This document shows positions 32,317-52,676 of a DNA stretch of 64,000 bases, piece after piece; the stretch's first letter is position 1, and every line of letters starts with the position of its first letter. A program made the position numbers and the translations under genes. The notes beneath the pieces are model-generated. The model was not told the DNA's origin, did no database searches, and worked only from the letters and a program-made list of their open reading frames with translations. The DNA is from Burkholderia sp. Nafp2/4-1b (GTDB lineage: Bacteria > Pseudomonadota > Gammaproteobacteria > Burkholderiales > Burkholderiaceae), in the NCBI RefSeq assembly GCF_003635165.1, contig NZ_ML058597.1, positions 1,164,916-1,228,915 of the forward strand, read 5' to 3'.

Positions 32317-32510
32317 CCGTCGGCCCGCAAGGCTCGGCACGGGCGCCGGACGGCCTCCTGGAAACGAATCCGGATATGCATTCTTTTCATTTCTTATCCG
32401 GCAGCTCAATCCGGTCTAATACCGGTAAAACGTTTGCACATTATCCGCGATTCGAATCGTGATGAATTGAATCGTTTACACAGCCATTCAAGCGTGAAAG
32501 CGAACACCAT

Positions 32511-33556: not shown

Positions 33557-33587
33557 CTTTCGTGCTCCTTTCCGTTCGGCGCGCGCA

Positions 33588-34790: not shown

Positions 34791-34842
34791 GCGTTCTCCG
34801 TCGCGCGGCGCCCGCCCGGCCGCCGCGCCGTCAAGGGTTCGT

Positions 34843-38043: not shown

Positions 38044-38129
38044 GCCGTCTCCTGTGTCGAATTCTCACGCCCGTCCCGCGTGGGATCGCGGCGTCTTGTT
38101 GAATGGCCGACCAACCTAATGTGGAGTCG

Positions 38130-38160
38130 AGTATAGGCTCTGTTGAACAGTGGTTCAACA
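38130..38160 (-). promoter_or_regulatory. Regulon promoter 1 with inverted-repeat operator (ABC-aruH operon)
   Basis: On the minus strand TTGAAC (38158-38153), a 17-bp spacer and TATACT (38135-38130) form the promoter of the ABC/aminotransferase operon. A 20-bp palindrome, TGTTGAAC-N4-GTTCAACA (38141-38160), overlaps the -35 and part of the spacer. The core TTGAA-N6-TTCAA recurs at 46296, 51876 and 51945, each at the same place relative to a -35. Confidence 0.75.
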
Positions 38161-38220
38161 GATTTCAATATTCCGGAAGCAAGGGTTTTCGCGGGTTCCG
38201 CGCGGCTTTCGGCGCTGTAA

Positions 38221-38250
38221 TTGAACAAGCGTCCGACACTCCCCTATAAT
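38221..38250 (+). promoter_or_regulatory. Promoter of the TetR-family regulator
   Basis: TTGAAC (38221-38226), an 18-bp spacer and a perfect TATAAT (38245-38250) lie just before the regulator's GTG. Transcription would start near 38257, giving a leader of about 25 bases that contains a four-codon ATG...TAA frame (38258-38272). The palindromic operator is ~60 bp further upstream. Confidence 0.6.
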
Positions 38251-38281
38251 CGGTGCCATGACGATTCCGTAAGGCCACTCC

Positions 38282-38938
38282 GTGAAAAAAACTCCTGGCA
38301 GCGCACCGGTCCAGACCCGCAGCCGCGGCATCCGAGAAACGCCCGCGGTGCGGCAGCAATCGATCATCGACGCAACGATGCGCTGCATCGCGCGCTACAG
38401 CTATTCGGAAACCACGATCGATCGCATCTGCGCGGAAGCGAAGGTGTCGCGCGGGCTGATCAACCATCACTTCCAGTCGAAAGACGAGCTGATGGCGCAG
38501 ACCTACAAGCGGCTCGCGGCCGACCTGCTCGACGTGTCGCGCGCGGCCGCCGCGAACGCGACCGGCCCCGAGGACAAGCTCGACGCGATCATCAAGGTGT
38601 GTTTCGCCGCGCCGGTGTTCGCGCCGAAGAACGTGAAGGTGTGGCTCGGCTTCTGGAGCGTCGCGCACAGCGACCCGGTGATCCGCAAGGCGCACAAGGA
38701 GCTGTATGCCGGCTACCGGCAGGCGCTGAAGAAACTGTTCGACCAGATCGCGGAGGTGCGCGGGGGCACCGTCGACAGCGATCTCGCGGCGCTGACGCTC
38801 ACGGCCGTGATCGACGGCTTCTGGCTCGAACTCGCGCGCGACCCGACGTCGTTCACCGCGGAAGACGCGCTGACGAGCTGCCTGCGCGTCGTCGATTCGT
38901 TCCTGCCACCGACGAAGACCACGCGCAAGCGCGCCTGA
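38282..38938 (+). CDS. TetR-family transcriptional regulator (BetI-like)
   Basis: A 218-aa repressor starting at GTG. The N-terminal HTH (ATMRCIARYSYSETTIDRIC ... VSRGLINHHFQSKDELM) and C-terminal domain (KVWLGFWSVAHSDPVIRKAH) match the BetI branch, whose known member senses choline. It is divergent from the ABC-aruH operon across a perfect 20-bp palindrome and is the only regulator inside the 32546-54164 island, so it is the leading candidate to bind the four shared operators. A terminator follows at 38988. Confidence 0.87.
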   Translation: MKKTPGSAPVQTRSRGIRETPAVRQQSIIDATMRCIARYSYSETTIDRICAEAKVSRGLINHHFQSKDELMAQTYKRLAADLLDVSRAAAANATGPEDKLDAIIKVCFAAPVFAPKNVKVWLGFWSVAHSDPVIRKAHKELYAGYRQALKKLFDQIAEVRGGTVDSDLAALTLTAVIDGFWLELARDPTSFTAEDALTSCLRVVDSFLPPTKTTRKRA

Positions 38939-38987
38939 CGGGCATCATGTACCTGGCCGCCGGCGCACGTCCGGCGGCAGATGCCAT

Positions 38988-39016
38988 GGCCTCGCACCGC
39001 GAGGCCGTTCTCGTTT
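38988..39016 (+). terminator. Terminator after the TetR gene
   Basis: A 7-bp perfect stem (38988-38994 with 39000-39006), 5-base loop and a T-rich tail (gttctcgttttc) end the regulator transcript just before the convergent decarboxylase gene. Confidence 0.65.
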
Positions 39017-40624
39017 TCAGGCCGCCCGAATCTCGATCAGGTACGGCGCATCGTGCGCGGCCGCTTCGCCGAGTGCACCGGCCAGCGATGCGCCCTCTTC
39101 GACCCGCTGCGCGCCCCATCCATACGCACGCGCGATCGCGACGAAATCGGGCGTATGCAGGTCCACGCCGACCGGCTCGACGCCGCCGTCGACCATCGCG
39201 CGCTTGATTTCCCCGTAACCGCCGTTGTTCAGCAGCACGACGATCACGCGCGCGCGGTGCTGCACCGCGGTGCCGAGCTCGGCGAGCGTGTACTGGAAGC
39301 CGCCGTCGCCGGCGATGCAGACCACCGGCCGCGACGCATCGCCGAGGCTCGCGCCGACCGCGGCCGGCAACCCGTAGCCAAGCGAGCCGAAGCCGACCGA
39401 CGCGTTGAACCAGCTGCGCGGGCGCGCTGCCGCGAAGCCGACGTTGCCCGCGTAGACGATGCGCGTCGAGTCGCCGACGATCGCCGCGTCGGGCAGCGCG
39501 TCGCGCACGCTGTCGAGCAGCGCGAGATCGCGCAGCATCTCGTCGTTCAGTTCCTGCCGCGCCGCCGCACGGCACATCGCCGCGCGCTCGGCGCCGTCGC
39601 CGCCGCCGTCGCTGCGCACCGGTGCATCGGCCGGCCATACGCGCCGCAGCGCACGCAGGGTTTCGCCGACGTCGCCGAGCAGCGGCAGCGCGGGCACCGC
39701 GTTGCGGCACAGCTGCTGCGGATCGATGTCGATCCGCACGAGCGACGCGGGCATCGAGAAGCTGCGCGTCGCATACAGGTCGTAATCCGTCGGCCCGAGT
39801 TCGGTGCCGAGCGCGACGATCGGATCGCTGTCGCGCATCAGCGCACGCACCGCGTCGGACGACGCCGACCACGACACGCCGAGCGCGTGCGCGGGCGGCA
39901 GCACGCCGCGCCCGTTGATCGTCATCACGACCGGCGCGTCGAGCGTTTCCGCGAGCCAGCGCACGTCGTCGGCCGCATGAAGCGCACCGCCGCCGGCGAG
40001 GATCAGCGGCGCGCGCGCGGCCGCCGCCTTCGCACGCAGCGCAGCGATGCCGTCGGCCGCTGCGGGCCCAGGCGCGATGCGCGGCGGTGCGGCCGTCACG
40101 GGCGGCAACGTGTCGGCCGGCGCGGCGAGCACGTCGAGCGGGATCTGGAGGTGCACCGGACGCGGCCGGCCGCCCGAGAACACCGCGAACGCGCGCGCGA
40201 TCGCCTGCGGCAGCGCGTCCGCACGCGGCACCGTGTAGCTCAACGCCGCGATGTTCTCCGCGAACGCGTGCTGGTCCGGCAATTCGTGCAGATGGCCGTT
40301 GCCCGAGCCGATGTCGCCGGACGCGTTGACGCTGGAAATCACCAGCATCGGAATCGAATCCGCATAGGCCTGCGCCATCGACGTCGCGATGTTCGTCATC
40401 CCCGGGCCGGTGATCACGAAACATACGCCCGGCTTGCCGGTTGCGCGCGCATAGCCGTCCGCCATGAAGCCGAGGCCCTGCTCGTGGCGCGCGCTCACGT
40501 GGCGCAGCGTGCTGCCGGCGAGGCCACGGTACAGCTCGATCGTGTGCACGCCGGGAATGCCGAACACCGTGTCGACGCCGTAGGCCGCGAGCAGGTCGAC
40601 CAGGTACATGCCTACTGTTTTCAT
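39017..40624 (-). CDS. ThDP-dependent decarboxylase, 2-ketoarginine decarboxylase (AruI)-like
   Basis: A 535-aa member of the acetolactate synthase/pyruvate decarboxylase superfamily. VFGIPGVHTIELYRGL, the activating Glu in SARHEQGLGFMADGYAR, and the ThDP/Mg site GDGGFQYTLAELGTA...LNNGGYG are present. It resembles AruI (5-guanidino-2-oxopentanoate decarboxylase), which makes 4-guanidinobutyraldehyde in the arginine transaminase pathway. It is the last gene of the minus-strand run that starts with the Pot-type ATPase at 46265. An acetolactate synthase role is less likely, as no small subunit gene is present. Confidence 0.75.
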   Translation of the reverse strand: MKTVGMYLVDLLAAYGVDTVFGIPGVHTIELYRGLAGSTLRHVSARHEQGLGFMADGYARATGKPGVCFVITGPGMTNIATSMAQAYADSIPMLVISSVNASGDIGSGNGHLHELPDQHAFAENIAALSYTVPRADALPQAIARAFAVFSGGRPRPVHLQIPLDVLAAPADTLPPVTAAPPRIAPGPAAADGIAALRAKAAAARAPLILAGGGALHAADDVRWLAETLDAPVVMTINGRGVLPPAHALGVSWSASSDAVRALMRDSDPIVALGTELGPTDYDLYATRSFSMPASLVRIDIDPQQLCRNAVPALPLLGDVGETLRALRRVWPADAPVRSDGGGDGAERAAMCRAAARQELNDEMLRDLALLDSVRDALPDAAIVGDSTRIVYAGNVGFAAARPRSWFNASVGFGSLGYGLPAAVGASLGDASRPVVCIAGDGGFQYTLAELGTAVQHRARVIVVLLNNGGYGEIKRAMVDGGVEPVGVDLHTPDFVAIARAYGWGAQRVEEGASLAGALGEAAAHDAPYLIEIRAA

Positions 40625-40677
40625 GTCGCTTCCATTCTTAGGTAATTGGGTGGATCACGGGCCGGACAGCGAGGCCG

Positions 40678-41316
40678 TCAATGCGCAAGCCCCGGCAGCA
40701 ATTCGCGCACGCCCTGCGCGAGCATCTGGAACGCGATCGCGGTAAGCACGATGCCCGACAGCCGCTCGACCAGCGTCCTGCCGATCTCGCCGAGCCGGCG
40801 GCACCACGACGCCGAGCACGCATACGTGAACCCGATCACGCCCGCATGCAGCACGCAGACCGCGCTCAGCGCGAGCAGGTCGGCCGGCGTGTGAAAGCGC
40901 GTCGCGGTCGTGATCACGAGCGACATCACCGCGCTGCCGATCGACAGCGGGAAGATGAGCGGCACCGCGATGTAGTTGCGCCATCGCGCATACTCGAGCC
41001 GCGTGTCGCCGCCGCTGCGTTCGTCGTTCGCCGTGCCGCGCATCATCGGGATCGACCACAGGCACAGCACGAGGCCGCCCGTCAGCGTCAGCGCGCCGAG
41101 CGTGAGGCCGAGCATGCGCAACAGGAACTGGCCGCCCCATACCGCGCCGACCATCAGCGCGGCGATCCACGCGAACAGCCTGAACGCGATCTGCCGCTGT
41201 GTCACGTCGGGAAAATGCCCGGTGACGGCCGCATACATCGGGATCGCGACCGGCGGACAGAACAGCGTCAGCAGGCCGGTCAGGAACAGCAGCACGTCGC
41301 TCGACGTCAGGGTCAT
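40678..41316 (-). CDS. MarC-family integral membrane protein
   Basis: A 212-aa protein with about six hydrophobic helices. The N-terminal half (LLTLFCPPVAIPMYAAVTG, then GLTLGALTLTGGLVLCLW) follows the MarC/UPF0056 pattern. These proteins are putative transporters; some are annotated as neutral amino-acid transporters, but function is not firm. It lies 53 bp upstream of the aruI-like gene in the same operon, so it may move a pathway intermediate. Confidence 0.75.
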   Translation of the reverse strand: MTLTSSDVLLFLTGLLTLFCPPVAIPMYAAVTGHFPDVTQRQIAFRLFAWIAALMVGAVWGGQFLLRMLGLTLGALTLTGGLVLCLWSIPMMRGTANDERSGGDTRLEYARWRNYIAVPLIFPLSIGSAVMSLVITTATRFHTPADLLALSAVCVLHAGVIGFTYACSASWCRRLGEIGRTLVERLSGIVLTAIAFQMLAQGVRELLPGLAH

Positions 41317-41379
41317 GGCTCGAACTCACATGCGGTCCGGGGTTGGAAAAGCGCGGCGGCAGCGCGGGCCGTGTCGCGC

Positions 41380-42108
41380 TCAGTCCTGCGCGGCTTCCTG
41401 CGGCGCACGCTCGCGCGGCCGCATGTCGCCGTCGAAATCGTCGAGCGACGGAAACGCCATCGGTTCGAGCCGGTCGAGGTGCGTCAGATAGTCGTCGTAG
41501 CGCTCGAGCACGGCCGCGCGCTCCGCGTCGCCGATGTACGGCACGTGATAGCCGACGAACGACGGCAGCACGTCGAAGCCCGCGTAACCGAGCGTCCCGC
41601 GCAGCACGTGGCGCAGCATCAGGTCCATCTCGCCGTGCACGCCGTCCGCACCGAACATGTAGTCGCGGCCGCCGCACGTGTAGGCGAGCAACGCGCGCTT
41701 GCCGCGCATCCCGCCACGATCGTAGAAACGCACGCCGCCGTACACCTTGCCCGACACGAGCACGCGGTCGATCCAGCCTTTCATGATCGCCGGCACCGAA
41801 CACCAGAACAGCGGGAAGCTGAGGATTAGCAAGTCGCACGCGGCGAGCTTGTCGAGCTCCGCGGCGATGTCCGGCGCGATCGCGTGCGCGGCGACGTTCT
41901 CGCGTTGCTCGAGCGCGTAGACGAGATAGTCCGGGTTCTTGCGCACGCCGAAATCGGCCGCGCTCGCGACCGGATTCCACTGCATCGCGTACAGGTCGGA
42001 CACCGTCACGGTGTGGCCCTGCGCTTCGAGCGTGCTCACCGCGCGGTGCAGCATCGACGTCGTGAACGACTGCGGTTCGGGATGGGCGTGAACGATCAGG
42101 ACTTTCAT
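41380..42108 (-). CDS. NAD(P)H dehydrogenase (quinone)/flavodoxin-fold oxidoreductase
   Basis: A 242-aa flavoprotein of the NQO1/MdaB/KefF family: FMN/FAD phosphate motif VLIVHAHPEPQSFTTS, LILSFPLFWCSVPAIMKGWIDRVL and GGRDYMFG. It reduces quinones or other acceptors with NAD(P)H. It starts 41 bp after the second Pot-type permease gene. Its role in the operon is unclear; redox recycling or detoxification of an aldehyde/quinone is possible. Confidence 0.86.
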   Translation of the reverse strand: MKVLIVHAHPEPQSFTTSMLHRAVSTLEAQGHTVTVSDLYAMQWNPVASAADFGVRKNPDYLVYALEQRENVAAHAIAPDIAAELDKLAACDLLILSFPLFWCSVPAIMKGWIDRVLVSGKVYGGVRFYDRGGMRGKRALLAYTCGGRDYMFGADGVHGEMDLMLRHVLRGTLGYAGFDVLPSFVGYHVPYIGDAERAAVLERYDDYLTHLDRLEPMAFPSLDDFDGDMRPRERAPQEAAQD

Positions 42109-42149
42109 GGTGCGCGTTTTCTCCGCAACGTAACGTTGAAGGGTTGAAT

Positions 42150-42944
42150 TCAGACGGCGCCGGCCGCGCGCTTGCGCAGCAGCGACAGGCCGATCGCGAC
42201 GCAGGTCGCGACGAGCAGCAGCGTGGACACCGACGCGATCGCAGGATCGACGTTCTCGCGCATCCCGTCCCACATGCGGCGCGGCAGCGTGTATACGTTG
42301 CGGCTCGAGATGAACAGCGTGACGACGAGTTCGTCCCACGACAGGATGAACGCGAACACCGCGGCCGACAGCACGCCCGGCTTGATCGAAGGCAGGATCA
42401 CGTAGCGCAGCGTTTGCGCGACGTTCGCGCCGAGGCTGCGCGATGCCTGCTCGATGCGCAGCCCGACGGTCGCGAGCGATGCGGAAACCGCGACCACCAC
42501 GTAAGGCACCGACAGCACGACGTGCGACAGGATCGCGGCCGGGTAGCTGTCGAGCATCCCGAGTTCACCCCACAGCCGGTAGAACGCGAGCGCCGACACG
42601 ATCGGCGGCACGATCAGCGGGAACAGGATCACGCCGCGCACGAACTCGCCGCGCCGCGACGCGACCTTCCACAGCCCGATCGCGCACAGCGTGCCGAGCG
42701 TGACCGAGATCGCCGACGACACCAGCGCGATCAGCGCGCTCTGCAGGAAGCTCGCCACCCAGCCGTCGTCGTCGAACAGCACGCGGTAGTGCCGCAGCGA
42801 CAGCGCGCCGTCCGGCATCGACAGGTAGTCGCTCGGCGTCAACGACACCGGCACCGACACGAGCAGCGGCAGCATCAGGAACAGGATCGCGGCCCACGCG
42901 ATGCCCACCACCAGCGCACGCCCTGCGGTCATTCGGGTTGTCAT
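42150..42944 (-). CDS. Pot-type ABC transporter permease (PotC-like)
   Basis: A 264-aa permease with six predicted helices and the EAA loop EQASRSLGANVAQTLRYVILP. Its ATG at 42944 has GGAGGA seven bases upstream; a longer frame continues into the neighbouring permease and is not used. It forms the channel with the PotB-like protein. The family carries polyamines, opines, thiamine and other cationic or polar compounds. Confidence 0.88.
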   Translation of the reverse strand: MTTRMTAGRALVVGIAWAAILFLMLPLLVSVPVSLTPSDYLSMPDGALSLRHYRVLFDDDGWVASFLQSALIALVSSAISVTLGTLCAIGLWKVASRRGEFVRGVILFPLIVPPIVSALAFYRLWGELGMLDSYPAAILSHVVLSVPYVVVAVSASLATVGLRIEQASRSLGANVAQTLRYVILPSIKPGVLSAAVFAFILSWDELVVTLFISSRNVYTLPRRMWDGMRENVDPAIASVSTLLLVATCVAIGLSLLRKRAAGAV

Positions 42945-42964
42945 CGGAACGTCCTCCGGTCGGG

Positions 42965-43840
42965 TCAGCGCGCGCCGAACAGCTCGCGCAGGTCGATGAA
43001 ACGCGCGAGCAGCGCGAGCGCGGCCAGGATCGACGCCAGCAGCAGCGACGCGAGCGCCGCGCCGCTGCCCCAGTTCACGAGCTGCAGGATCTGCGTGCTG
43101 ATGTATTCGGCGATCATCACCGTGCGGCCGCCGCCGAGGATCACCGGCGTCACGTAGAAGCCGAGCGAGAAGATGAACACGAGGATCGCCGCGCCGACGA
43201 TGCCCGGCCGTGTCTGCGGGAAATACACCTTGCGGAACGTGACGAACGCACCGGCGCCGAGCCCCTGCGACGCGCGCGCGAGCTGCGGGTCGATGCCCTT
43301 CATGTTCGCGTACAGCGGCAACACCGCGTACGGAATCATGAAGTGGATCATCCCGATCACGACGCCGACCTCGTTGCGCATCAGCGGCAGCGGCGCGTCG
43401 ATCAGCCCGATGCGCAGCAGCAGCGTGTTGACGAGCCCCTGTTCGCCGAGCAGGAACAGCCACGAGAACGCACGCACCAGCACCGACGCCCAGAACGGCA
43501 CGAGCAAGCCGAACAGCAGCGCCATCCGCTGACGCGCGCCGACGTGCGCCATCGCATACGCAATCGCATAGCCGAGCGCGACCGAGCACACGGTCGTGAC
43601 CGCGCACACGCGCAGCGTGGTCCACAGCACGCGGTGCACGCCGTGGTTGTCGAGCAGCCGCGCGTAGTTCTGCAGGCCCGGCTCGGGCACGGTGAAGCCG
43701 AGCCACAGCACGCGCACGAGCGGATACACGTACAGCACGATCAGCACCGCGAGCAGCGGCACGACGAGCAGCCAATAGCGATCGGCTTTCGCGCGGCCGA
43801 GCGGGACGGCGCGCGCGACGGGAGTAGACAAGGTATTCAT
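42965..43840 (-). CDS. Pot-type ABC transporter permease (PotB-like)
   Basis: A 291-aa permease with a basic N-terminus, about six helices and the EAA loop ARASQGLGAGAFVTFRKVYFP. It starts 25 bp after the binding-protein gene and is followed 20 bp later by the PotC-like gene. Confidence 0.88.
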   Translation of the reverse strand: MNTLSTPVARAVPLGRAKADRYWLLVVPLLAVLIVLYVYPLVRVLWLGFTVPEPGLQNYARLLDNHGVHRVLWTTLRVCAVTTVCSVALGYAIAYAMAHVGARQRMALLFGLLVPFWASVLVRAFSWLFLLGEQGLVNTLLLRIGLIDAPLPLMRNEVGVVIGMIHFMIPYAVLPLYANMKGIDPQLARASQGLGAGAFVTFRKVYFPQTRPGIVGAAILVFIFSLGFYVTPVILGGGRTVMIAEYISTQILQLVNWGSGAALASLLLASILAALALLARFIDLRELFGAR

Positions 43841-43865
43841 GGCGTCACGCTCACGAAGCGGCGGC

Positions 43866-44975
43866 TCAGGACGACATCAGGTCGGTGTACTGCGCGAGCG
43901 TCGCTTCGTAGTGCTGCGCCCACCACTCGGGATTCACCTTGCACTGCTTCGCCCAGTTCTCGGGCGTGCCCGGATTGTCGGCGCGCAGCGCCTGCGGCAC
44001 CGCGGCGGTCGCGGCCGGCGTCACCGGCCCGTTACCGAGCAGCGACAACAGGCGCACCTGCGGCTCGACACCCTGCACGAACTTGATGAACTGCCACACA
44101 GCATCGCCCGACGGGTTGTTCTTCGGCACGCCCCACACGTCGCACGACGCGAGCCCTTGCTCCCACGTATAGCGGAACCGGCCGTTGCTCTCGCGCTGGA
44201 TCACGTTCGCGCGCGTGTGCCAGATGCATGCCATGCTGACTTCGCCGTTGCGCAGCAGTTGCAGGCTGTCCGCGCCCGAATCCCACAACAGCACGTTCGA
44301 GCGCAGTTCCTTCAGTTTCTTCAGCGCGCGCGGCACGTCGATCGGATAGACCTTGTCCTTGTCGACTCCGTCGGCCATCAGCGCGGCTTCGAGCGCGCCG
44401 CCCATCCACTTCCACAGCCCGCGCTTGCCCGGAAACTTGCCGACGTTCCAGAAATCGGCCCAGTTCTTCGGCGGATTCGCGCCGAACTTGCGCGCGTCGT
44501 AGACGAGCACGTAGCTCAGCAGATACGACGGCACGCCGAAGTCCGATGCGAGCCCCGGCAGCGTATTGCGGCCCACGACCGAATAATCGATCGGCCGCAG
44601 GAAGCCCTGCTTGCCGAGCTTGATCGCCGCGAAGCCGTCGAGGTCCATCACGTCCCAGATCACGTTCCGGTTCTCGACCATCGCCTTGATCTTGCCGTCC
44701 TCCGGCGACGAGTCGTAGCCCATCCGGATCCCGCTCGCCTTCGTGAACGGGTCCATGTAGGCCGAGCGGAACGCCGAGCGCGCTTCGCCGCCCCACGCGC
44801 TGAGCACGATTTCCTTCGGGTTCGACGCCCGCGCGTCCGTCGCGCCGAGCGACAGCAGCGTCGGCGCGATGCCGGCGGCCGCGCACAGCCGCAGAAAATC
44901 GCGGCGGCGCCGCGACGTCGCGGGCTGAAGATCGCGTGCTTGGTCGAGCAGGTCCTGCAGATAGCGGTTCGTCAT
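43866..44975 (-). CDS. Pot-type ABC transporter substrate-binding protein (PotD-like), probable Tat substrate
   Basis: A 369-aa periplasmic binding protein. The N-terminus contains SRRRRDFLRLCAAAGIAP, a twin-arginine-type signal, with cleavage near DARASN. The mature part (VLSAWGGEARSAF, GYDSSPEDGKIKAMVENR, WDVMDLDGFAAIK) belongs to the PotD/PotF-like family 1 binding proteins. The ligand is probably cationic; polyamines, guanidino compounds or quaternary amines are all compatible. GGAGGAGAC precedes the ATG. Confidence 0.88.
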   Translation of the reverse strand: MTNRYLQDLLDQARDLQPATSRRRRDFLRLCAAAGIAPTLLSLGATDARASNPKEIVLSAWGGEARSAFRSAYMDPFTKASGIRMGYDSSPEDGKIKAMVENRNVIWDVMDLDGFAAIKLGKQGFLRPIDYSVVGRNTLPGLASDFGVPSYLLSYVLVYDARKFGANPPKNWADFWNVGKFPGKRGLWKWMGGALEAALMADGVDKDKVYPIDVPRALKKLKELRSNVLLWDSGADSLQLLRNGEVSMACIWHTRANVIQRESNGRFRYTWEQGLASCDVWGVPKNNPSGDAVWQFIKFVQGVEPQVRLLSLLGNGPVTPAATAAVPQALRADNPGTPENWAKQCKVNPEWWAQHYEATLAQYTDLMSS

Positions 44976-45098
44976 GGTGTCTCCTCCAGGCTGGTCAGCG
45001 CCCGCACGCGTCTCGTCGTTTTCGGGCGTCGGGGAATCGGCGACGACGACGGCGGGCGCCGCGCCGCGCGCAATGCATGCAATGCAACGCTCGCCGCG

Positions 45099-46265
45099 TC
45101 AGTCGGCCGCGATCCGGCAGGTCGCGTCGCGCTCCCACTGCACGAACACGTCCATGCCGGTGCGCGGCGACGCCAGCCCGCGCCACGCGGGCACGTCGGC
45201 CGTCATGCAGCCGAGCGCCGCCGTGTCGATCTCGAAGCGGTACGACGAGCCGAAATAGCTCCAGTGACGAATGCGTCCCGCCACTTCGTTGTGCGCACCA
45301 TCGCACGACGTCGCCGACACGGCGACCTTCTCCGGGCGCAGCGCGAACAGCAACGGTTCGTCGGGACGCACACCGCATGCGGGTGCAACGAAGCGCGCAT
45401 CGCCGACGCGATAGTGCGTGGCCGCCGCATCGCCGCCGAGCGCGACGCCTTCGATGAAATTGCTCTTGCCGAGGAAGTCCGCGACGAAGCGGTTGGCCGG
45501 CTGTTCGTACAGCCCGTCCGGCGTGCCGATCTGCTCGAGCCGGCCGTCGCGCATGATCGCGATCCGGTCCGACATCGACAGCGCTTCCTCCTGGTCGTGC
45601 GTGACGAACAGGAAGGTCGCGCCGAGCCGTTCGTGCAGCGCCTTCAACTCGACCTGCACCTCGCCGCGCAGCTTGCGGTCGAGCGCGCCGAGCGGTTCGT
45701 CGAGCAGCACGAGATCGGGATCGAACACCAGCGCGCGAGCAATCGCGACGCGCTGCTGCTGGCCGCCCGACAACTGGCGCGGCAGGCGATCGGCGAGATG
45801 ACCGAGCCGCACGAGATCGAGCGCGGCCTTCACGCGCTTCACCGCGTCGGGGCCCTTCTGCTTGCGCACCATCAGCGGATACGCGACGTTCTGCTCGACC
45901 GTCATGTGCGGAAACAGCGCATAGCCCTGGAACACCATCCCGAAGTTGCGCTTCTCCGGCGGCAACGCGACGATGCTGCGGCCGCCGACGCGCAGGTCGC
46001 CGCTGCTCGGATGCTCGAAGCCCGCGACGATCGTCAGCAGCGTCGTCTTGCCCGAACCCGACGGCCCGAGGATCGTCAGGAATTCGCCGCGCGGAACGTC
46101 GAGCGTCGTTTCCCGCAGCGCGTGCACGCTGCCGTAGCGCTTCGACACGCGATCGATCTGCAGGCCGGCGCCGCTCGCGACGCGCCCCTCCGATGCCGCG
46201 CGTGCCGCATGCGCTGCGGTCCTGCCGTCCTCCACACCTGCCGACGTCTCCATCACCGCGCTCAT
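45099..46265 (-). CDS. Pot-type ABC transporter ATP-binding protein (PotA-like)
   Basis: A 388-aa ATPase: Walker A GPSGSGKTT, signature [15 protein letters not shown], Walker B LVLLDEPLGALDRKL, H-loop VTHDQEEAL, then a C-terminal TOBE region. The ATG at 46265 (MSAVMETS) has AGGAGA eight bases away and is preferred to an extension to 46307, which would run over the operator. It heads the seven-gene run 46265-39017 and is divergent from the crotonase operon. A gap of 123 bp separates it from the binding-protein gene. Confidence 0.9.
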   Translation of the reverse strand: MSAVMETSAGVEDGRTAAHAARAASEGRVASGAGLQIDRVSKRYGSVHALRETTLDVPRGEFLTILGPSGSGKTTLLTIVAGFEHPSSGDLRVGGRSIVALPPEKRNFGMVFQGYALFPHMTVEQNVAYPLMVRKQKGPDAVKRVKAALDLVRLGHLADRLPRQLSGGQQQRVAIARALVFDPDLVLLDEPLGALDRKLRGEVQVELKALHERLGATFLFVTHDQEEALSMSDRIAIMRDGRLEQIGTPDGLYEQPANRFVADFLGKSNFIEGVALGGDAAATHYRVGDARFVAPACGVRPDEPLLFALRPEKVAVSATSCDGAHNEVAGRIRHWSYFGSSYRFEIDTAALGCMTADVPAWRGLASPRTGMDVFVQWERDATCRIAAD

Positions 46266-46295
46266 CGTGTGTCTCCTGGTCGACTCACAATTGGG

Positions 46296-46324
46296 TTGAA
46301 CGTTCATTTAACATAACTTATACT
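46296..46324 (+). promoter_or_regulatory. Regulon promoter 2 with operator (crotonase-ACAD-synthetase operon)
   Basis: TTGAAC (46296-46301), a 17-bp spacer and TATACT (46319-46324) drive the rightward CoA operon. The operator core TTGAA-N6-TTTAA (46296-46311) differs from the others by one base, and a perfect TGAACGTTCA lies at 46297-46306. Register with the -35 is the same as at the other three sites. It may also affect the divergent Pot-type operon. Confidence 0.72.
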
Positions 46325-46410
46325 ATGCCGAAATGCGGTCCGCAAGTAGCGGCGACCCTTGCCGGCTCTGACACACACCGACACACAACAACCAGGAGAC
46401 AGTGATCAGC

Positions 46411-47199
46411 ATGAGCATCGACGACATCCGAATCGAACGGCACGACGGCGTCGTGACCCTTCGCCTGAACCGCCCGGCGAAACGCAATTCGCTCGCGCGG
46501 CCGCATCTCGACTTTCTTCGCGAGACGCTCGAAGCACTCGCGAACGATTCGGCCGTGCGCTGCGTCGTGCTGACCGGCAGCGGCAGCGCGTTCTGTGCCG
46601 GCGCGGACGTCGACGAATGGGCCGAGGCCGAGCGCAACGGCGAACTCGACACCTACGGCTGGACCGAGCGTGCGCACCGCTTCGTGCAGGTGCTGGCCGC
46701 GTTTCCGCGCCCGACGATTGCCGCGCTGAACGGCTCGACGGTCGGCGCGGGCACCGACATCGGTTTCGCGTGCGACTTCCGCATCGCGAGCACGGTGGCG
46801 ACGCTGCGCTGCGGGTATACGGGCATGGGCTACAGCCCCGACATGGGCGGAAGCTGGTTCCTGCCGCGCATCGCGCGCCCCGACGTCGCACGCCGCTTCA
46901 TCTTCCTCAACGAACGCTGGAACGCGCAGGACGCGCTCGCGGCCGGGCTCGTGTCCGAAGTCGTCGACGCCGATGCATTCGCCGAGCACGTCGCGGCGTT
47001 CGCCGCACGGCTCGCGCAGGGGCCGAGCGTCGCGTTCGGCCATACCAAGGCACTGCTCGCGCAATCGCTCACGCAGACGCTCGCGGAGCAACTGCGCGGC
47101 GAGCTGGCGGCCGGCGTCGCGTGCGGTCACAGCGAGGACGGCCAGGAAGCGCTTCGCGCGTCGGTCGAAGGCCGCGCACCTCATTTTGTCGGGAGATGA
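46411..47199 (+). CDS. Enoyl-CoA hydratase/isomerase family protein
   Basis: A 262-aa crotonase. Oxyanion-hole segments SAFCAGADVDEW and STVGAGTDIGFACDF are present. The first hydratase Glu is replaced by Asp (GTDIG) and the second by Tyr; instead YSPDMGGSW has the Asp found in PaaG/isomerase-type crotonases, so the reaction may be double-bond isomerisation or another crotonase reaction. The ATG at 46411 is used; an in-frame GTG at 46402 lies too close to the AGGAGA site. It is the first gene of a three-gene CoA operon, 3 bp before the dehydrogenase. Confidence 0.85.
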   Translation: MSIDDIRIERHDGVVTLRLNRPAKRNSLARPHLDFLRETLEALANDSAVRCVVLTGSGSAFCAGADVDEWAEAERNGELDTYGWTERAHRFVQVLAAFPRPTIAALNGSTVGAGTDIGFACDFRIASTVATLRCGYTGMGYSPDMGGSWFLPRIARPDVARRFIFLNERWNAQDALAAGLVSEVVDADAFAEHVAAFAARLAQGPSVAFGHTKALLAQSLTQTLAEQLRGELAAGVACGHSEDGQEALRASVEGRAPHFVGR

Positions 47200-47202
47200 T
47201 CG

Positions 47203-48360
47203 ATGGATTTTTCGCTGACCCAAGAGCAGGAAATGCTGGTTTCGTCGCTGCGCCAGTTCGTCGAGAAGGAACTGCAGCCTCATGAATTCGCGGTCGATCG
47301 CGCGGACGACGTGCCGCCCGAACTCGCCGACTCGATTCGCCGCAAGTCGCTTGAACTCGGCTTCTACGCGTTCAACATGCCGGAAAGCGCGGGCGGCCCC
47401 GGCCTCGACTACGTGACGCAGGCGCTCGTCGAGCGCGAGCTCGGCCGCACGAGCTGGGCGCTGCACGTGTTCGTCGCGCGGCCGAGCAAGATCCTGATGG
47501 CGTGCAAGGGCGACCAGATCGAGCGCTACCTGAAACCGGCCGTGCGCGGCGAGCGCGTCGACTGCTTCGCGCTGACCGAACCGGGCGCCGGCTCCGATGC
47601 GATGGGCATCCGCACGCGCGCGGTGCGCGACGGCGACGACTACGTGATCAACGGCAGCAAGCACTTCATCAGTCACGCGGATACGGCCGACTTCGTGATC
47701 CTGTTCGCCGTCACCGGCGAGGAGGAAGTGCGCGGCCAGAAGCGCAAGCGCGTGACCTGCTTCCTGATCGACAAGGACACGCCGGGCATGACCGTGCGGC
47801 GCGGCCCGCACTGCACGAGCCTGCGCGGCTACCACCAGTCGGAAATCTTCCTGAGCGACTGCCGCGTGAGCGCCGCGCAGATCCTCGGCGAAGAACATCG
47901 CGGCTTCGAACTCGCGAACGACTGGCTCACCGCCGGCCGCGTGATGGTCGCCGCGAACAACATCGGCCGCGCGCAGCGCGCGTTCGAGATGGCCGCCGAA
48001 TGGGCCGCGACGCGTCATCAGTTCGGCAAGCGCATCGGCGATTTCCAGGGCACGTCGTTCAAGCTCGCGGACATGCAGACCGAGATCCGCGCGGCGGAAC
48101 TCGTCACGCTCTACACCGCGCAGAAGCTCGACCAGGGCACGATGACCGACGGCGACGCCGCGCTCGCGAAGCTGCTGGCCACCGAGACGCTCGGCCGCGT
48201 GACCGATCACGCGGTGCAGATCTACGGCGGCATGGGGTTGATGGACGAGCTGCCGATCGAGCGCTTCTGGCGCGATGCGCGCATCGAGCGCATCTGGGAA
48301 GGCACGTCCGAGATTCAGCGCCACATCCTGTCCAAGGAAATCCTCCGACGCTACAGCTGA
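47203..48360 (+). CDS. Acyl-CoA dehydrogenase family protein
   Basis: A 385-aa FAD-dependent acyl-CoA dehydrogenase. CFALTEPGAGSDAMG is the FAD/substrate loop, RHQFGKRIGDFQ and QIYGGMGLMDELPIERFWRDA are conserved, and the catalytic Glu is E366 in WEGTSEIQ. It would introduce the 2,3-double bond into an acyl-CoA, here probably one made by the synthetase encoded next. Spacing to its neighbours is 3 bp upstream and 50 bp downstream. Confidence 0.92.
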   Translation: MDFSLTQEQEMLVSSLRQFVEKELQPHEFAVDRADDVPPELADSIRRKSLELGFYAFNMPESAGGPGLDYVTQALVERELGRTSWALHVFVARPSKILMACKGDQIERYLKPAVRGERVDCFALTEPGAGSDAMGIRTRAVRDGDDYVINGSKHFISHADTADFVILFAVTGEEEVRGQKRKRVTCFLIDKDTPGMTVRRGPHCTSLRGYHQSEIFLSDCRVSAAQILGEEHRGFELANDWLTAGRVMVAANNIGRAQRAFEMAAEWAATRHQFGKRIGDFQGTSFKLADMQTEIRAAELVTLYTAQKLDQGTMTDGDAALAKLLATETLGRVTDHAVQIYGGMGLMDELPIERFWRDARIERIWEGTSEIQRHILSKEILRRYS

Positions 48361-48410
48361 CGCGAACCGTCGCGCCGGTGCGTCCGGCGCGCGTTCAAAA
48401 AGGACACTTC

Positions 48411-50552
48411 ATGACCTCCTCTCCCGAAGTCAGGGACCGCCGCGCGACGGCCGCGGCCAATCTGCGCCGGCTGCTCGATCCGGCCAGCATCGCGTTCGTC
48501 GGCGGACGCGGCATCGCGGGCGCCGTGCAGCGCTGTCGCGATTACGGCTATGCCGGCGACGTCTGGCTCGTCAACCCGAACCATGCGGAGCTCGACGGCG
48601 TGCGCTGCCACGCGAGCATCGCCGACCTGCCCGCCGCACCGGACGCCGTGTTCGTCGCGGTGCCCGCGCGCCAGGCGATCGATGTCGTGCGCGCGCTCGC
48701 CGAACGCGGCGCGGGCGGCGCGATCGTCTACGCATCGGGCTTCTCCGAAACGGGCGCCGACGGCGCCGCGCTACAGCAGGCGCTGATCGACGCGGCCGGC
48801 GACATGGCCATGCTCGGCCCGAACTGCTACGGGCTGATCAACGGGCTGAACGGCAGCGCGCTGTGGCCGGTCGCGCACGGTGCGCCGCGCGTCGAGTCGG
48901 GTGTCGCGGTGATCACGCAGAGCGGCAACCTCGCCTACAACCTGTCGATGAGCGCGCGCTCCGTGCCGTTCGCGTATCTCGCGAGCGTCGGCAACCAGGC
49001 GTCGGTCGACATCGCGCGCCTCGTCGATGCGTTCGTCGACGATCCGCGCATCCGCGCGATCGGCGTGCATCTCGAAGGGTTGAAGGACGTGCGCGCGTTC
49101 AGCGAGGCCGCGGCGCGCGCGCTCGCACGCGGCGTGCCGATCGTCGCGCTGAAGAGCGGCACGTCGACGCTCGGCGCGCAGCTCGCGATGAGCCACACGA
49201 GCTCGCTCGCGGGTTCGGACGCACTGTACGACGCATTATTCAGGCGACTCGGCGTGATCCGCGTGAAGGATCCGGTCGGCCTCGTCGAGACGCTGAAGCT
49301 GCTCGCGATCGCCGGTGTGCCCGAGTGCCGCACGCTCGCCGCGCTGGCGACGTCCGGCGGCGACGCGGGGCTCGTCGCGGATCTCGGCGAAGCGCGCGGC
49401 ATTGCATTCCCGCCGGTGGGCGACGCCGGCCGCACTGCGCTCGGCAACGTGCTGCCCGCTTACGCGACGATCGCGAACCCGCTCGATTTCACGACGACGC
49501 CGTGGGGCGATCCCGACAAGATGCGCGCGTGCTGCGACGCGCTGCTCGCCGATCGTCCGGGCGCCGCCGCGATGATCCTCGACTATCCGCAGGAAGCGAC
49601 CGGCGAGCGGCCGCTGTGCGATATCGCGGCGAACGCGTTCGCCGCGTCCGCGCGCCAGCACGGCGTGGTCGGCGCGGTGATCTCGGTGTTTCCGGACCTG
49701 ACGCCGCCCGACCACGCGGCCCGCATGGCCGCCGCCGGCATTGCGCCGCTGCAGGGGCTCGCCGACGGGATCGACGCGATCGGCGCGGCGATGACCTATG
49801 GCGACACGCGCCGCCGCGTGCTCGATGCCGATGCGCTGAACGCGCTGCCGGTGCTGCGCGCGGGCCGCAGCGGCAGCGGCAACGGCAACGGCAGCGCGAC
49901 GCTGCACGACGAATGGGCGAGCAAGCGGATGCTGGCCGCGCACGGGCTCGACGTGCCGGCGGCCGAATGCGTCGCGCCCGCCGACGCGCCGGCTGCCGCG
50001 CAGCGGCTCGGCTTCCCGGTCTGCGTGAAGGTGGTCAGCGATCGCCTGCCGCACAAGACCGAGGCCGGCGCGGTCGCGTTGAAGCTGGGCTCGCCCGACG
50101 CTGTGGCCGCCGCCGTCGAGCGGATGACCGAACAGGTCGCGCGGTACGCGCCGGACGTGCGTGTCGAGCGGATCCTCGTCGAGAAGATGGCCGACGCGCC
50201 GCTGCTCGAACTGATCGTCGGCGTGAAGCGCGAGCCGAATTTCGGTCTGGCGCTGGTGCTCGGCACCGGCGGCGTGCTGGTCGAGCTGATCCGCGACACC
50301 GCGACGCTGCTGCTTCCGGTGCGCGAAAGCGACGTGCGCGACGCGCTGCTCGGGCTGAAGCTCGGCCCGCTGCTGACCGGCTATCGCGGGCGGCCGAAGG
50401 CCGATCTCGATGCGGTCGTCGCGAACGTGATGGCGATCGCGCGCTTCGCGCAGACGCACGCCGATACGCTCGTCGAGCTCGACGTCAATCCGCTGCTGGT
50501 GATGGAACGCGGCGCGGTGGCCGTCGATGCGCTGGTGAGGCTCGACGCGTGA
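48411..50552 (+). CDS. NDP-forming acyl-CoA synthetase (fused alpha-beta ATP-grasp type)
   Basis: A 713-aa enzyme with a CoA-binding Rossmann domain (LLDPASIAFVGGRG), succinyl-CoA-ligase-like domains with the phospho-His in AMSHTSSLAGSD, and a C-terminal ATP-grasp domain (KRMLAAHGLDVPAAE ... FPVCVKVVSDRLPHKTEAG). It activates a carboxylic acid to its CoA thioester with ATP. The two halves are joined by a Gly/Ser/Asn linker coded by a short ggcaac/ggcagc repeat (~49866-49890). It completes an activation-dehydrogenation-crotonase set. Ferulate-type Fcs enzymes have a different fold, so phenylpropanoid use is not implied. Confidence 0.88.
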   Translation: MTSSPEVRDRRATAAANLRRLLDPASIAFVGGRGIAGAVQRCRDYGYAGDVWLVNPNHAELDGVRCHASIADLPAAPDAVFVAVPARQAIDVVRALAERGAGGAIVYASGFSETGADGAALQQALIDAAGDMAMLGPNCYGLINGLNGSALWPVAHGAPRVESGVAVITQSGNLAYNLSMSARSVPFAYLASVGNQASVDIARLVDAFVDDPRIRAIGVHLEGLKDVRAFSEAAARALARGVPIVALKSGTSTLGAQLAMSHTSSLAGSDALYDALFRRLGVIRVKDPVGLVETLKLLAIAGVPECRTLAALATSGGDAGLVADLGEARGIAFPPVGDAGRTALGNVLPAYATIANPLDFTTTPWGDPDKMRACCDALLADRPGAAAMILDYPQEATGERPLCDIAANAFAASARQHGVVGAVISVFPDLTPPDHAARMAAAGIAPLQGLADGIDAIGAAMTYGDTRRRVLDADALNALPVLRAGRSGSGNGNGSATLHDEWASKRMLAAHGLDVPAAECVAPADAPAAAQRLGFPVCVKVVSDRLPHKTEAGAVALKLGSPDAVAAAVERMTEQVARYAPDVRVERILVEKMADAPLLELIVGVKREPNFGLALVLGTGGVLVELIRDTATLLLPVRESDVRDALLGLKLGPLLTGYRGRPKADLDAVVANVMAIARFAQTHADTLVELDVNPLLVMERGAVAVDALVRLDA

Positions 50553-50567
50553 TGCTCGTCTGAAACG

Positions 50568-50604
50568 CAACGGCCCGCTCACGCGATACGCGAGCGGGCC
50601 GTTG
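50568..50604. terminator. Bidirectional hairpin between synthetase and porin genes
   Basis: A 13-bp perfect stem (50568-50580 with 50592-50604) separates two convergent genes. There is no T-run, so it is a likely but not classical terminator for both. Confidence 0.55.
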
Positions 50605-50638
50605 CCGGATTGACTGTCGGCCCGGGAACGAGAAAGGA

Positions 50639-51769
50639 TCAGAAGTTATGCCGCATGCCGATGCGAGCGGCAGCCTGCGTGCGGCTCGTCGACGGCGTGA
50701 AGCTGTAGCCGATCACCGCATCGACGCCGTTCGACGCGCGCATCCAGTCGACCGCCGCATAGACGTCGGTGCGCTTCGACAGCGCGTAATGCGCGCCGAG
50801 CGCGACTTCGTGCCAGTGATGGCCTTCGAACGTCGTGTACTGGTAGCCCGCGACCAGCGACAGCGGCACGGTCGCCTGGTACAGGCCGCCCGCCTCGTAC
50901 ACGCGCATCGTCGACGATTGCCCGTAGCCCTTGAACGTGGTGTTGCTGAAGTCCGCGTTCAGCGTCAGCTTGCCGAGCGTGTACGACGCACCGATGCCGA
51001 AGATCGACTGCGAGTCGACCGCGAACGGCGTCGAATCGTGCAGATCGGTGACGGCACCCGTCGCCGGATCGACTGTCGCGACCGTCTGGCCAAGCATCGT
51101 GCGCACGCCCATCTGCGCATACGGGTCGAGCGCCGCGAGCCGGCGAGGCTTGTTGAGCCGCGTATAGTTGCCGCCCGCCGAGAAATCGCCGTGCGTATAG
51201 GTCGCGCCGGCGCTCCACGCGCTGCCGTCGTGGAAGCTGCCGGCATCGTTGCTGAACGAATACATGCCGCCGACCACGAGCCCGTGGAAGCTGTTGCTGA
51301 CGAATTTCACCGCGTTCTGCAGCCGGTCGCCGCTCTGCCGGTCGAAGTCGCCGAGGTGCACGCCGTAGCCGCTGCCGAACGCGCTCACGTTGTACGCGGC
51401 CGTGAAGTCGAATGCGAAGTCGTACTGATTGCCGAACGTCAGCGTGCCCCAGTCGTTGCCGAGCCCGACATACGCCTGCCGCCCGAACATGGCGCCGCCC
51501 TGGTTCAGCTTGCCGGTGCCGAGCCGGAAGCCGCTCTCGAGCTTGAGCACCGCCTTGTTGCCGCCGCCGAGATCCTCGGTGCCCATCAGGCCGAAGCGAT
51601 TGCCGTACGACACGCCGTCGTCGAACAGGTACGCATGCGCGCCGCCCGTGTTGTTCACGTAGGTGATGCCGCCGTCGATGATCCCGTACAGCGACACGCT
51701 GCTCTGGGCATGGGCGTAGCCGTGGACCATCACCGACATCATGCCGGCCAGCAGGAAGCGCTTCTTCAT
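50639..51769 (-). CDS. Gram-negative general porin (OmpC/Omp38 type)
   Basis: A 376-aa outer-membrane trimeric porin. A signal peptide ends near YAHAQS, the mature chain starts SSVSLYGIIDGGITYVNN as in Burkholderia porins, amphipathic strands alternate through the chain, and it ends with the obligatory aromatic F (GMRHNF). It should let small hydrophilic solutes into the periplasm. Its promoter carries the shared operator, so it is probably a substrate-specific porin of the island's pathway rather than a constitutive one. Confidence 0.93.
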   Translation of the reverse strand: MKKRFLLAGMMSVMVHGYAHAQSSVSLYGIIDGGITYVNNTGGAHAYLFDDGVSYGNRFGLMGTEDLGGGNKAVLKLESGFRLGTGKLNQGGAMFGRQAYVGLGNDWGTLTFGNQYDFAFDFTAAYNVSAFGSGYGVHLGDFDRQSGDRLQNAVKFVSNSFHGLVVGGMYSFSNDAGSFHDGSAWSAGATYTHGDFSAGGNYTRLNKPRRLAALDPYAQMGVRTMLGQTVATVDPATGAVTDLHDSTPFAVDSQSIFGIGASYTLGKLTLNADFSNTTFKGYGQSSTMRVYEAGGLYQATVPLSLVAGYQYTTFEGHHWHEVALGAHYALSKRTDVYAAVDWMRASNGVDAVIGYSFTPSTSRTQAAARIGMRHNF

Positions 51770-51862
51770 TTCGGTGTCTCCGGTTGCCGCGCGCGGCGGC
51801 TCGATTTTTCGTTGTGCGTGAACGCCGCCGGCCTGCTTCGTTTCGGCACCGCGGCGCTGGCG

Positions 51863-51891
51863 AGTATAGGTTTCGTTGAATGAATGTTCAA
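51863..51891 (-). promoter_or_regulatory. Regulon promoter 3 with operator (porin)
   Basis: On the minus strand TTGAAC (51891-51886), a 17-bp spacer and TATACT (51868-51863) lie about 95 bp before the porin ATG. TTGAA-N6-TTCAA (51876-51891) overlaps the -35. The string cgagtatagg at the -10 is identical to that of promoter 1. Confidence 0.75.
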
Positions 51892-51944
51892 TCGATTGAA
51901 GAGCCGGAACGCACCGGTGTTTACACCCATCGGCGATTTCATTA

Positions 51945-51973
51945 TTGAAAAAACGTTCAACCCGTCATAACAT
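51945..51973 (+). promoter_or_regulatory. Regulon promoter 4 with operator (thioesterase-aldehyde dehydrogenase)
   Basis: TTGAAA (51945-51950), a 17-bp spacer and TAACAT (51968-51973) lie ~58 bp before the thioesterase ATG. TTGAA-N6-TTCAA (51945-51960) covers the -35, in the same register as the other three sites. Together with promoter 3 it makes a divergent double-operator region. Confidence 0.7.
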
Positions 51974-52030
51974 CGGTCGGCAGCCCGCGGACGACGTGCG
52001 GGCCCGTTCCGAAACCTCGGAGTGCACTGG

Positions 52031-52645
52031 ATGACGACCACCCTCAGCCCCGCCGCCGAGCCGCGCCTGCGCTCGGCCTACGAAGGACAGAAGTCGCGCC
52101 CGTACGACCCGGCCGCGCCGATCGCGACGCCGCTCGAACTGCATCGCTGCACCGTCCGGCCCGAGTGGGTCGACTACAACGGCCACATGAGCGAATCGTG
52201 CTACCTGCTCGTGTTCGGCGACAGCAGCGATGCGTTGTTCCGCTACTTCGGCATCGACGACGACTATCGCGAGGCCGGCTGCTCGATCTATTCGGCGGAA
52301 ACGCATATCCGCCACCTGCGTGAAGCAATGCTCGGCGAGCCGCTGCGGCTCACGGTGCGGCTGCTCGACATGGACGACCGCCGGCTGCACGTGTTCCATT
52401 CGATGCATCACGCGACGACCGGCGCGCAGCTCGCGACCGGCGAACAGTTGCTGACGCACGTGGACATGCACGCGAAGCGCTCGGCACCGTTCCCGGCCGC
52501 GATCCGCCGGCATCTCGACGCGATTCACGCGGAACATGCGCGTGCGCCGCGCGAGCCGCACGCGGGTCGTGCGATCGCGATCCGCCGCCCGTCCGCTGCT
52601 GCTTCCGCACCTTCCGCATCTTCCGCATCTTCCACTGCCCGCTGA
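52031..52645 (+). CDS. Hotdog-fold acyl-CoA thioesterase (betainyl-CoA thioesterase-like)
   Basis: A 204-aa 4HBT-type thioesterase. The helix start VRPEWVDYNGHMSESCYLLV carries the catalytic Asp/His-Met pattern, and YSAETHIRHLREAMLGEPL strongly resembles the thioesterase domain fused to, or encoded beside, carnitine 3-dehydrogenases (CdhB, betainyl-CoA). The last ~17 residues are Ser/Ala-rich low complexity coded by a cttccgcat-type repeat and are probably dispensable. The ATG at 52031 follows CGGAG at good spacing. An acyl-CoA with a quaternary or guanidino end is a likely substrate (inference). Confidence 0.8.
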   Translation: MTTTLSPAAEPRLRSAYEGQKSRPYDPAAPIATPLELHRCTVRPEWVDYNGHMSESCYLLVFGDSSDALFRYFGIDDDYREAGCSIYSAETHIRHLREAMLGEPLRLTVRLLDMDDRRLHVFHSMHHATTGAQLATGEQLLTHVDMHAKRSAPFPAAIRRHLDAIHAEHARAPREPHAGRAIAIRRPSAAASAPSASSASSTAR

Positions 52646-52676
52646 CCACGCCGAACCACGACGAAGGAGCTTTCCC

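Follow-up and report, generated by a model that had tools for sequence, protein, structure and literature searches.

The question raised by a 64,000-nucleotide stretch of the genome of Burkholderia sp. Nafp2/4-1b (hereafter the window, meaning the whole stretch that was analysed) is whether four promoters of transport and catabolic genes within it answer to one local regulator. The original prediction placed a shared operator at positions 38143, 46296, 51876 and 51945 and assigned it to a BetI-like TetR-family gene starting at 38282. All four sites are present in the sequence at these coordinates, and our analysis indicates that the BetI-like TetR encoded at 38282-38938 is very probably the local repressor of a catabolic regulon with four operators, presumably released by a cationic intermediate. 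The elements are as follows:

38143-38158, minus strand: putative operator 1, TTGAACAGTGGTTCAA, which fits TTGAAC-N4-GTTCAA with 0 mismatches and overlaps the -35 of the ATP-binding cassette (ABC) transporter promoter (38158 to 38130)
46296-46311, plus strand: putative operator 2, TTGAACGTTCATTTAA, which overlaps the crotonase promoter (46296-46324) at its -35
51876-51891, minus strand: putative operator 3, TTGAATGAATGTTCAA, which overlaps the porin promoter (51891 to 51863) at its -35
51945-51960, plus strand: putative operator 4, TTGAAAAAACGTTCAA, which overlaps the thioesterase-aldehyde dehydrogenase promoter (51945-51973) at its -35
38282-38938, plus strand: tetR, encoding a BetI-like TetR protein (TetR_N and TetR_C_6 domains) with recognition helix region VSRGLINHHFQSKDEL

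The predicted register, with exactly 17 bp between a TTGAAC or TTGAAA -35 and TATACT or TAACAT, is found at all four sites, and a promoter consensus scan recovered every one of them. On the minus strand, the ABC operon and porin promoters read TTGAAC-17-TATACT; on the plus strand, the crotonase operon has TTGAAC-17-TATACT and the thioesterase-aldehyde dehydrogenase pair TTGAAA-17-TAACAT. The TTGAA half of each site is shared with the -35, and the operators span the region from the -35 to about -20. Site 1, described earlier as a 20-bp palindrome, turns out to have 8-bp arms and a non-palindromic 4-bp centre. Operators 2, 3 and 4, once oriented, have a common asymmetric centre, TTGAAC[AG]TT, which is largely kept across species and which site 1 lacks. 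This centre may be an overlapping second box as in BetI2 of Ruegeria pomeroyi, for which an excerpt of the report describes two overlapping palindromes that share AAACTTGAAC and do not match the BetI consensus (PMC12442346).

First, the arrangement is rare. Across the host genome (7,786,184 bases in 92 contigs), exact TTGAA-N6-TTCAA occurs in four places, three of which are sites 1, 3 and 4; site 2 falls outside this count because its second half is TTTAA. A scan of the genome had been proposed as a check, and in this exact form the motif is not common. Further, a composite of TTGAA-N6-TTYAA with a hexamer matching TATAAT at 4/6 or more positions after 17 bp was observed 4 times in the window; neither 300 copies of the window simulated with an order-1 Markov model nor 20,000 such copies of the three intergenic stretches contained it, which bears out the expectation that the shared register is unlikely to arise by chance. 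We also inspected 18 off-cluster near-matches, comprising the fourth exact place and the off-cluster places with at most one mismatch among the matches listed. None was counted as a target, because 15 of the 18 lie inside a mechanical open reading frame (ORF) of at least 100 amino acids and in 17 neither strand offers, at 17 bp, a hexamer that matches TATAAT at 4/6 or more positions. The near-match TTGAATAAATGTCTAA on contig C58 (3103-3118) lies outside ORFs of at least 100 amino acids; on its minus strand TTAGAC is followed after 17 bp by GATAAG (4/6), and the place remains a candidate. Places with two mismatches number 177 on each strand, and those within the window were followed; a near-match at window position 32476 (three mismatches to TTGAACNNNNGTTCAA, one to the degenerate pattern) was not accepted as a site. 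Over 65 genomes of the genus, the number of TTGAA-N6-TTCAA occurrences alone (0-9 each) does not separate genomes with the TetR from those without it.

Second, regulator, presumed targets and sites persist together. An orthologue of the TetR (at least 87% identical) is found in 21 of the 65 genus genomes, the closest named one being that of Burkholderia anthina (98%), and the coenzyme A (CoA) ligase gene accompanies it in 20 of these 21 and occurs in no other; the one genome with the TetR that lacks the ligase gene is an 82%-complete assembly. We compared 19 relatives and the window's own locus, 16 of these 20 loci spanning all four sites. The conservation count took one row per genome from 27 genomes (21 Burkholderia, 5 Paraburkholderia and 1 Caballeronia), with sites 2-4 searchable in the 22 that have long loci, and left out loci L004, L005 and L007-L016, which share contigs with other loci, and L018, which shares its contig with L069. 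A site is present at the orthologous promoter in 27/27 genomes for site 1, 22/22 for site 2, and 20/22 for each of sites 3 and 4; sites 1 and 2 persist at the same promoters in all three genera, and sites 3 and 4 in Burkholderia and Paraburkholderia. Gene content between the sites varies, some relatives having no Pot genes or no MarC at the locus, with site 2 still at the crotonase promoter. The mean major-allele frequency is 0.98-1.00 in the first half-site, 0.96-1.00 in the second and 0.92-1.00 in the -10, and it is 0.82-0.90 in the remainder of the 17-bp spacer and 0.64-0.78 in the 25 bp upstream. At site 1, the central 4 bp are variable (0.73) and both halves are kept. This half-site pattern is as would be expected of an operator, not merely of a promoter.

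Third, the motif occurs with diverged regulators in distant lineages. The TetR of Pseudomonas sp. 2FG, 44% identical and with the same helix region, has as neighbours a CoA ligase (47%), an aldehyde dehydrogenase (62%), a Pot-like transporter and a gene resembling those of acyl-CoA dehydrogenases; its locus contains TTGAACGATTGTTCAG (one mismatch) and TTGAACGTTTATTTAG (three mismatches, resembling site 2). In a different family of the class, a locus whose TetR is 35% identical has three sites, two of them perfect and the third with one mismatch. In lineages whose TetR is 32-36% identical, TTGAAC-N4-GTTCAA (0-1 mismatch) stands ahead of the same operons: TTGAACAGTCGTTCAT or TTGAACACTCGTTCAT lies 73-84 bp before the first candidate start of an aminotransferase-ABC-TetR-deacylase cluster (L153-L155), TTGAACAATTGTTCAG lies ahead of the crotonase-acyl-CoA dehydrogenase-CoA ligase genes (L151), sites precede both the ABC genes and the aminotransferase-AruI genes in L117, and one precedes the aminotransferase-ABC genes on an Agrobacterium rubi plasmid (L116). 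On the basis of these positions, a diverged TetR, the putative operator and one or two of the regulon operons have stayed together in four settings.

Fourth, the sites tend to go with an asparagine in the recognition helix, at position 61. Among 37 loci of about 20 kb, sites are present in 6/12 with asparagine and in 0/23 with another residue, and two loci with unresolved helices have none; the asparagine loci hold 8 sites (0.3 expected) and the others 0 (0.7 expected). The association has a Fisher p of 0.0006, computed over relatives that are not independent, four of the six positives (L151 and L153-L155) belonging to one genus. The five loci from which the idea came (L117, L113, L116, L025 and L024) stand outside this count. 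The homologous TetRs of Aminobacter (L112), a Rhodospirillaceae bin (L026) and Fuscovulum (L115) all lack the asparagine, and their loci, of about 20 kb for the first two and 8.3 kb for the third, contain no site with at most one mismatch.

Several results count against this account. The 37 loci (27 of 29 new 3.6-kb loci, seven more matches in the same genomes and three betI-like loci, drawn from the matches listed) were chosen after a preset prediction had failed: a site within 2 kb was expected wherever position 61 is asparagine, and was found in 2/6 such loci among the 29 (0/21 with other residues, two helices unresolved), with 0/9 in betI-like loci (L046-L054). Even at about 20 kb, half of the asparagine loci (6/12) are still without a site, the positive L167 lies inside ORFs and is probably due to chance, and the paralogue L024 from P. 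solitsugae, which has no asparagine, has sites nearby. In the conservation count, the search patterns had been loosened to variants already seen, no recognisable site 3 or 4 was found in the Caballeronia locus (L023), and site 3 is absent from one Paraburkholderia locus (L019) and site 4 from another (L021). Part of the conservation reflects common descent, since the Burkholderia relatives are close. Finally, the centre of operators 2-4 is conserved as well (0.94-1.00), so the motif there is more than two half-sites. As a separate observation, the P. solitsugae contig carries further TetR genes related to that of the window (L024, 68%; L097, 42%); they adjoin a second cluster of transporter and aminotransferase genes, in which sites resembling the operator occur.

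Taken with these reservations, the evidence favours what was originally proposed, one shared operator and one regulator, the TetR at 38282: TetR and CoA ligase co-occur, the operators persist, distant sites agree, the helix residue tends to, and a paralogous cluster does without the motif. The last is a second AruI/Arg-type ABC/aldehyde dehydrogenase/Pot cluster in the same genome (contig C19, 107500-127400; AruI 54-56% identical to that of the window), where the window TetR has no match and the best site has three mismatches. A broader generalization is tentative and, in our judgement, somewhat short of probable: that a BetI-like TetR subfamily with the asparagine helix (GL[IV]NHH) and the operator TTGAAC-N4-GTTCAA controls, in several proteobacterial lineages, a module by which arginine, or a guanidino or methylated amino acid related to it, would be transaminated, decarboxylated and oxidized to an omega-cationic acid, then degraded as a CoA ester (by ADP-forming ligase, acyl-CoA dehydrogenase, crotonase and thioesterase) instead of by guanidinobutyrase. 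If the link between helix residue and operator holds, operators would become predictable for many BetI-like TetRs without assigned function.

How would such a regulon work? As looked for in a local TetR repressor, palindromic sites lie over the promoters of the presumed targets and next to the regulator gene; binding and repression we infer. A TetR dimer would bind TTGAAC-N4-GTTCAA, covering the -35 to about -20 of the four sigma-70 promoters, and keep RNA polymerase off the -35. Binding should exclude the polymerase because the operators cover this region, as proposed for BetI1 of R. pomeroyi, whose 29-bp protected region covers the predicted -35 according to the same excerpt (PMC12442346). 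The promoters serve an Arg-type ABC transporter-aminotransferase-deacylase operon, a crotonase-acyl-CoA dehydrogenase-CoA ligase operon, a porin and a thioesterase-aldehyde dehydrogenase pair. A cationic intermediate derived from an amino acid, for which 2-ketoarginine, 4-guanidinobutyrate or its CoA ester are the candidates, would release the repressor. Joint expression would then allow uptake through the porin and ABC transporter, transamination, decarboxylation by the adjoining AruI-like enzyme, KauB-like aldehyde oxidation and CoA-dependent oxidation, the last consisting of CoA activation followed by dehydrogenation and hydration, with participation of the thioesterase. The genes concerned are:

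37237-38043, minus strand: ABC transporter ATPase; the operator-1 operon begins with this gene
36353-37150, minus strand: Lys/Arg/Orn-type periplasmic binding protein (TIGR01096, 223 bits, below the cut-off of 256)
35588-36304 and 34843-35538, minus strand: two ABC permeases
33588-34796, minus strand: class I/II aminotransferase, candidate AruH
32546-33556, minus strand: AstE/AspA-type deacylase, last gene of the operon (start placed by eye at the ATG at 33556; the longer ORF is 32546-33736)
39017-40624, minus strand: AruI-like thiamine pyrophosphate enzyme, 5-guanidino-2-oxopentanoate decarboxylase (NF005712, 727.8 bits, above the cut-off of 500)
42150-46265, minus strand: PotABCD-like ABC transporter, reading away from operator 2; no clear -10 was seen on the minus strand
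46402-47199, plus strand: crotonase family enoyl-CoA hydratase
47203-48360, plus strand: acyl-CoA dehydrogenase
48411-50552, plus strand: ADP-forming type acyl-CoA ligase
50639-51769, minus strand: Gram-negative porin
52022-52645, plus strand: 4HBT thioesterase resembling the C-terminal portion of the carnitine 3-dehydrogenase model
52653-54164, plus strand: PuuC/KauB-like aldehyde dehydrogenase (approximate start)

The aminotransferase had been named aruH; it is a class I/II enzyme whose identity as AruH is not confirmed, no cut-off being passed among the 25 listed of 66 NCBIfam families. Behind operator 2, the minus strand from 39017 to 46265 holds the PotABCD-like genes, a flavodoxin-fold oxidoreductase, a MarC-family gene and aruI. 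These genes may be read from the operator 2 region; a minus-strand promoter sought there for the PotABCD-like operon gave GTGAGT or a similar hexamer at 17 bp, and the scan returns the plus-strand promoter only. Just past the end of the ABC operon (29733-32126) lies a gene for a CheA-like sensor kinase (4HB_MCP, HAMP, Hpt, HATPase).

Taken together, the genes point to degradation of a guanidino acid, or of a cationic acid like it, by a route that depends on CoA. Effector and chemistry are inferred, and it is on the substrate that an alternative is strongest. The TetR may bind the sites while the compound degraded is another cationic one (N-methylated lysine or arginine, N-acyl arginine or betaine), the AruI-like and KauB-like enzymes acting on analogues. 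This possibility, which is compatible with the proposed regulation, we rate only a little below an even chance. It draws on the second AruI/ABC/aldehyde dehydrogenase/Pot cluster in the genome, the resemblance of the thioesterase to the thioesterase part of the carnitine 3-dehydrogenase model, the deacylase within the operon, and a homologous TetR beside a trimethylamine-methyltransferase family gene. Against it, AruI scores above the curated cut-off for 5-guanidino-2-oxopentanoate decarboxylase and the aldehyde dehydrogenase is close to KauB (matches to 6b4r at 4.7e-181 and 4lih at 2.8e-237), neither of which fixes the substrate.

Is the regulator rather the true BetI? The sites could be bound mainly by this choline repressor, or by another BetI paralogue, with the local TetR acting on other targets. 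The promoter of the genome's own betI is indeed similar, with the palindrome TTGATTGAACGATCAATAA over a TTGAAC hexamer and TAAGCT (3/6 to TATAAT) after 17 bp. In addition, TTGAAC[AG]TT, which is near one BetI half, is found in operators 2 and 3 and, when the opposite strand is read, in operator 4. We nevertheless consider this very unlikely. BetI-like matches (29-34% identical, E up to 1e-15) occur in 63/65 genus genomes, against 21 for the TetR; the BetI helix differs (ISTGIVSHYFGDKDGL); no site with at most one mismatch was found in the 20-kb loci of three betI-like genes (L182-L184) or in the nine shorter loci; and the motif accompanies the TetR subfamily into other lineages. The window TetR itself scores well above the domain cut-offs (TetR_C_6, 87.1 bits against 27; TetR_N, 53.9 against 24) and below those of the BetI equivalogs (TIGR03384, 124.4 of 201.3; NF001978, 114.5 of 118), so that 'BetI-like', the label it had been given, is apt and 'BetI' itself would be wrong.

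Two further elements lie between the ABC operon and tetR:

38096-38117, unstranded: near-palindromic element TTGTTGAATGGCCGACCAACCT, which lies shortly after the point where ABC transcription is expected to start and has its core 44-46 bp from operator 1
38221-38250, plus strand: tetR promoter, TTGAAC-18-TATAAT, with an intact first half-site and a degenerate second half, a weak operator or none

The 16-bp core of the first (TTGAATGGNCNACCAA, at 38099) is present in 27/27 genomes (25 exact, two with one mismatch), its exact form is unique in the genome, and it differs from the operator by three mismatches; the element could serve as a second operator or be bound by some other factor. TTGAAC-18-TATA[AC]T likewise stands ahead of tetR in 27/27 genomes, in rows, a few of them repeats of one genome, picked by a pattern demanding TTGAAC and TATA[AC]T, so that the first half is intact by construction. 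Self-control of tetR is uncertain because the second half-site is degenerate there (mean 0.83).

The least probable explanation, slightly behind BetI, is that these are simply strong sigma-70 promoters whose TTGAAC -35 is itself half of each palindrome, as the tetR promoter with the same -35 and no intact second half might suggest, and that the second half-site arose by chance, so that no operator would be shared. Yet the two halves are conserved to about the same degree, the second more than the remaining spacer; the Markov controls yield no such arrangement; and in distant lineages similar sites precede the orthologous operons even where a -10 at 17 bp is lacking.

Repression of all four promoters by the TetR at 38282 thus remains the reading we prefer, and it turns a cluster without annotation into a defined regulon with a candidate regulator, four mapped putative operators and a short list of candidate inducers. 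Local TetR regulons are an already known kind, and the result is solid yet fairly conventional: a local TetR with genes that seem fit for the uptake and degradation of an arginine-like compound. A search of titles and the beginnings of abstracts, mostly outside subscription journals, found no description of this regulon and none of a CoA-dependent guanidino-acid route; guanidinobutyryl-CoA came up in four papers, whose titles concern polyketides, vectors for antibiotic production and microbial interactions.

Among known systems, RolR, a TetR-family protein of Corynebacterium glutamicum, shares the operator core: TGAAC-N4-GTTCA, the core of the motif here, is one of two palindromic repeats within its 29-bp site, according to an excerpt of the report (PMC9210681). 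The organism and gene set are different. BetI is alike in its TetR_N and TetR_C_6 domains, in a palindrome over the -35 of its targets and in a local catabolic regulon for a cationic compound. It differs in its box (TTGATTGAACGATCAATAA, against TTGAAC-N4-GTTCAA here) and in a recognition helix with serine where the window TetR has asparagine. No betA or betB was seen among the annotated neighbours of the window TetR, and the aldehyde dehydrogenase 13.7 kb from tetR falls below the betaine-aldehyde dehydrogenase cut-offs; an aldehyde dehydrogenase adjoins the other BetI (L092). The closest solved structure to the profile of the window TetR and its homologues is PDB 3e7q (6.6e-60), with the helix region VSVGLINHHYDGKDAL and GLINHH in common. 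It is a TetR-type 'transcriptional regulator' from Pseudomonas aeruginosa, for which we know of no operator or ligand, and a literature search for 3e7q together with TetR found no paper. The arginine transaminase pathway of P. aeruginosa runs through AruH, AruI and KauB and has the AruRS two-component system. The window matches it in an AruI-like decarboxylase, a KauB-like dehydrogenase and a class I/II aminotransferase, and differs from it in an acyl-CoA branch, a porin and a thioesterase placed under a putative TetR-type operator.

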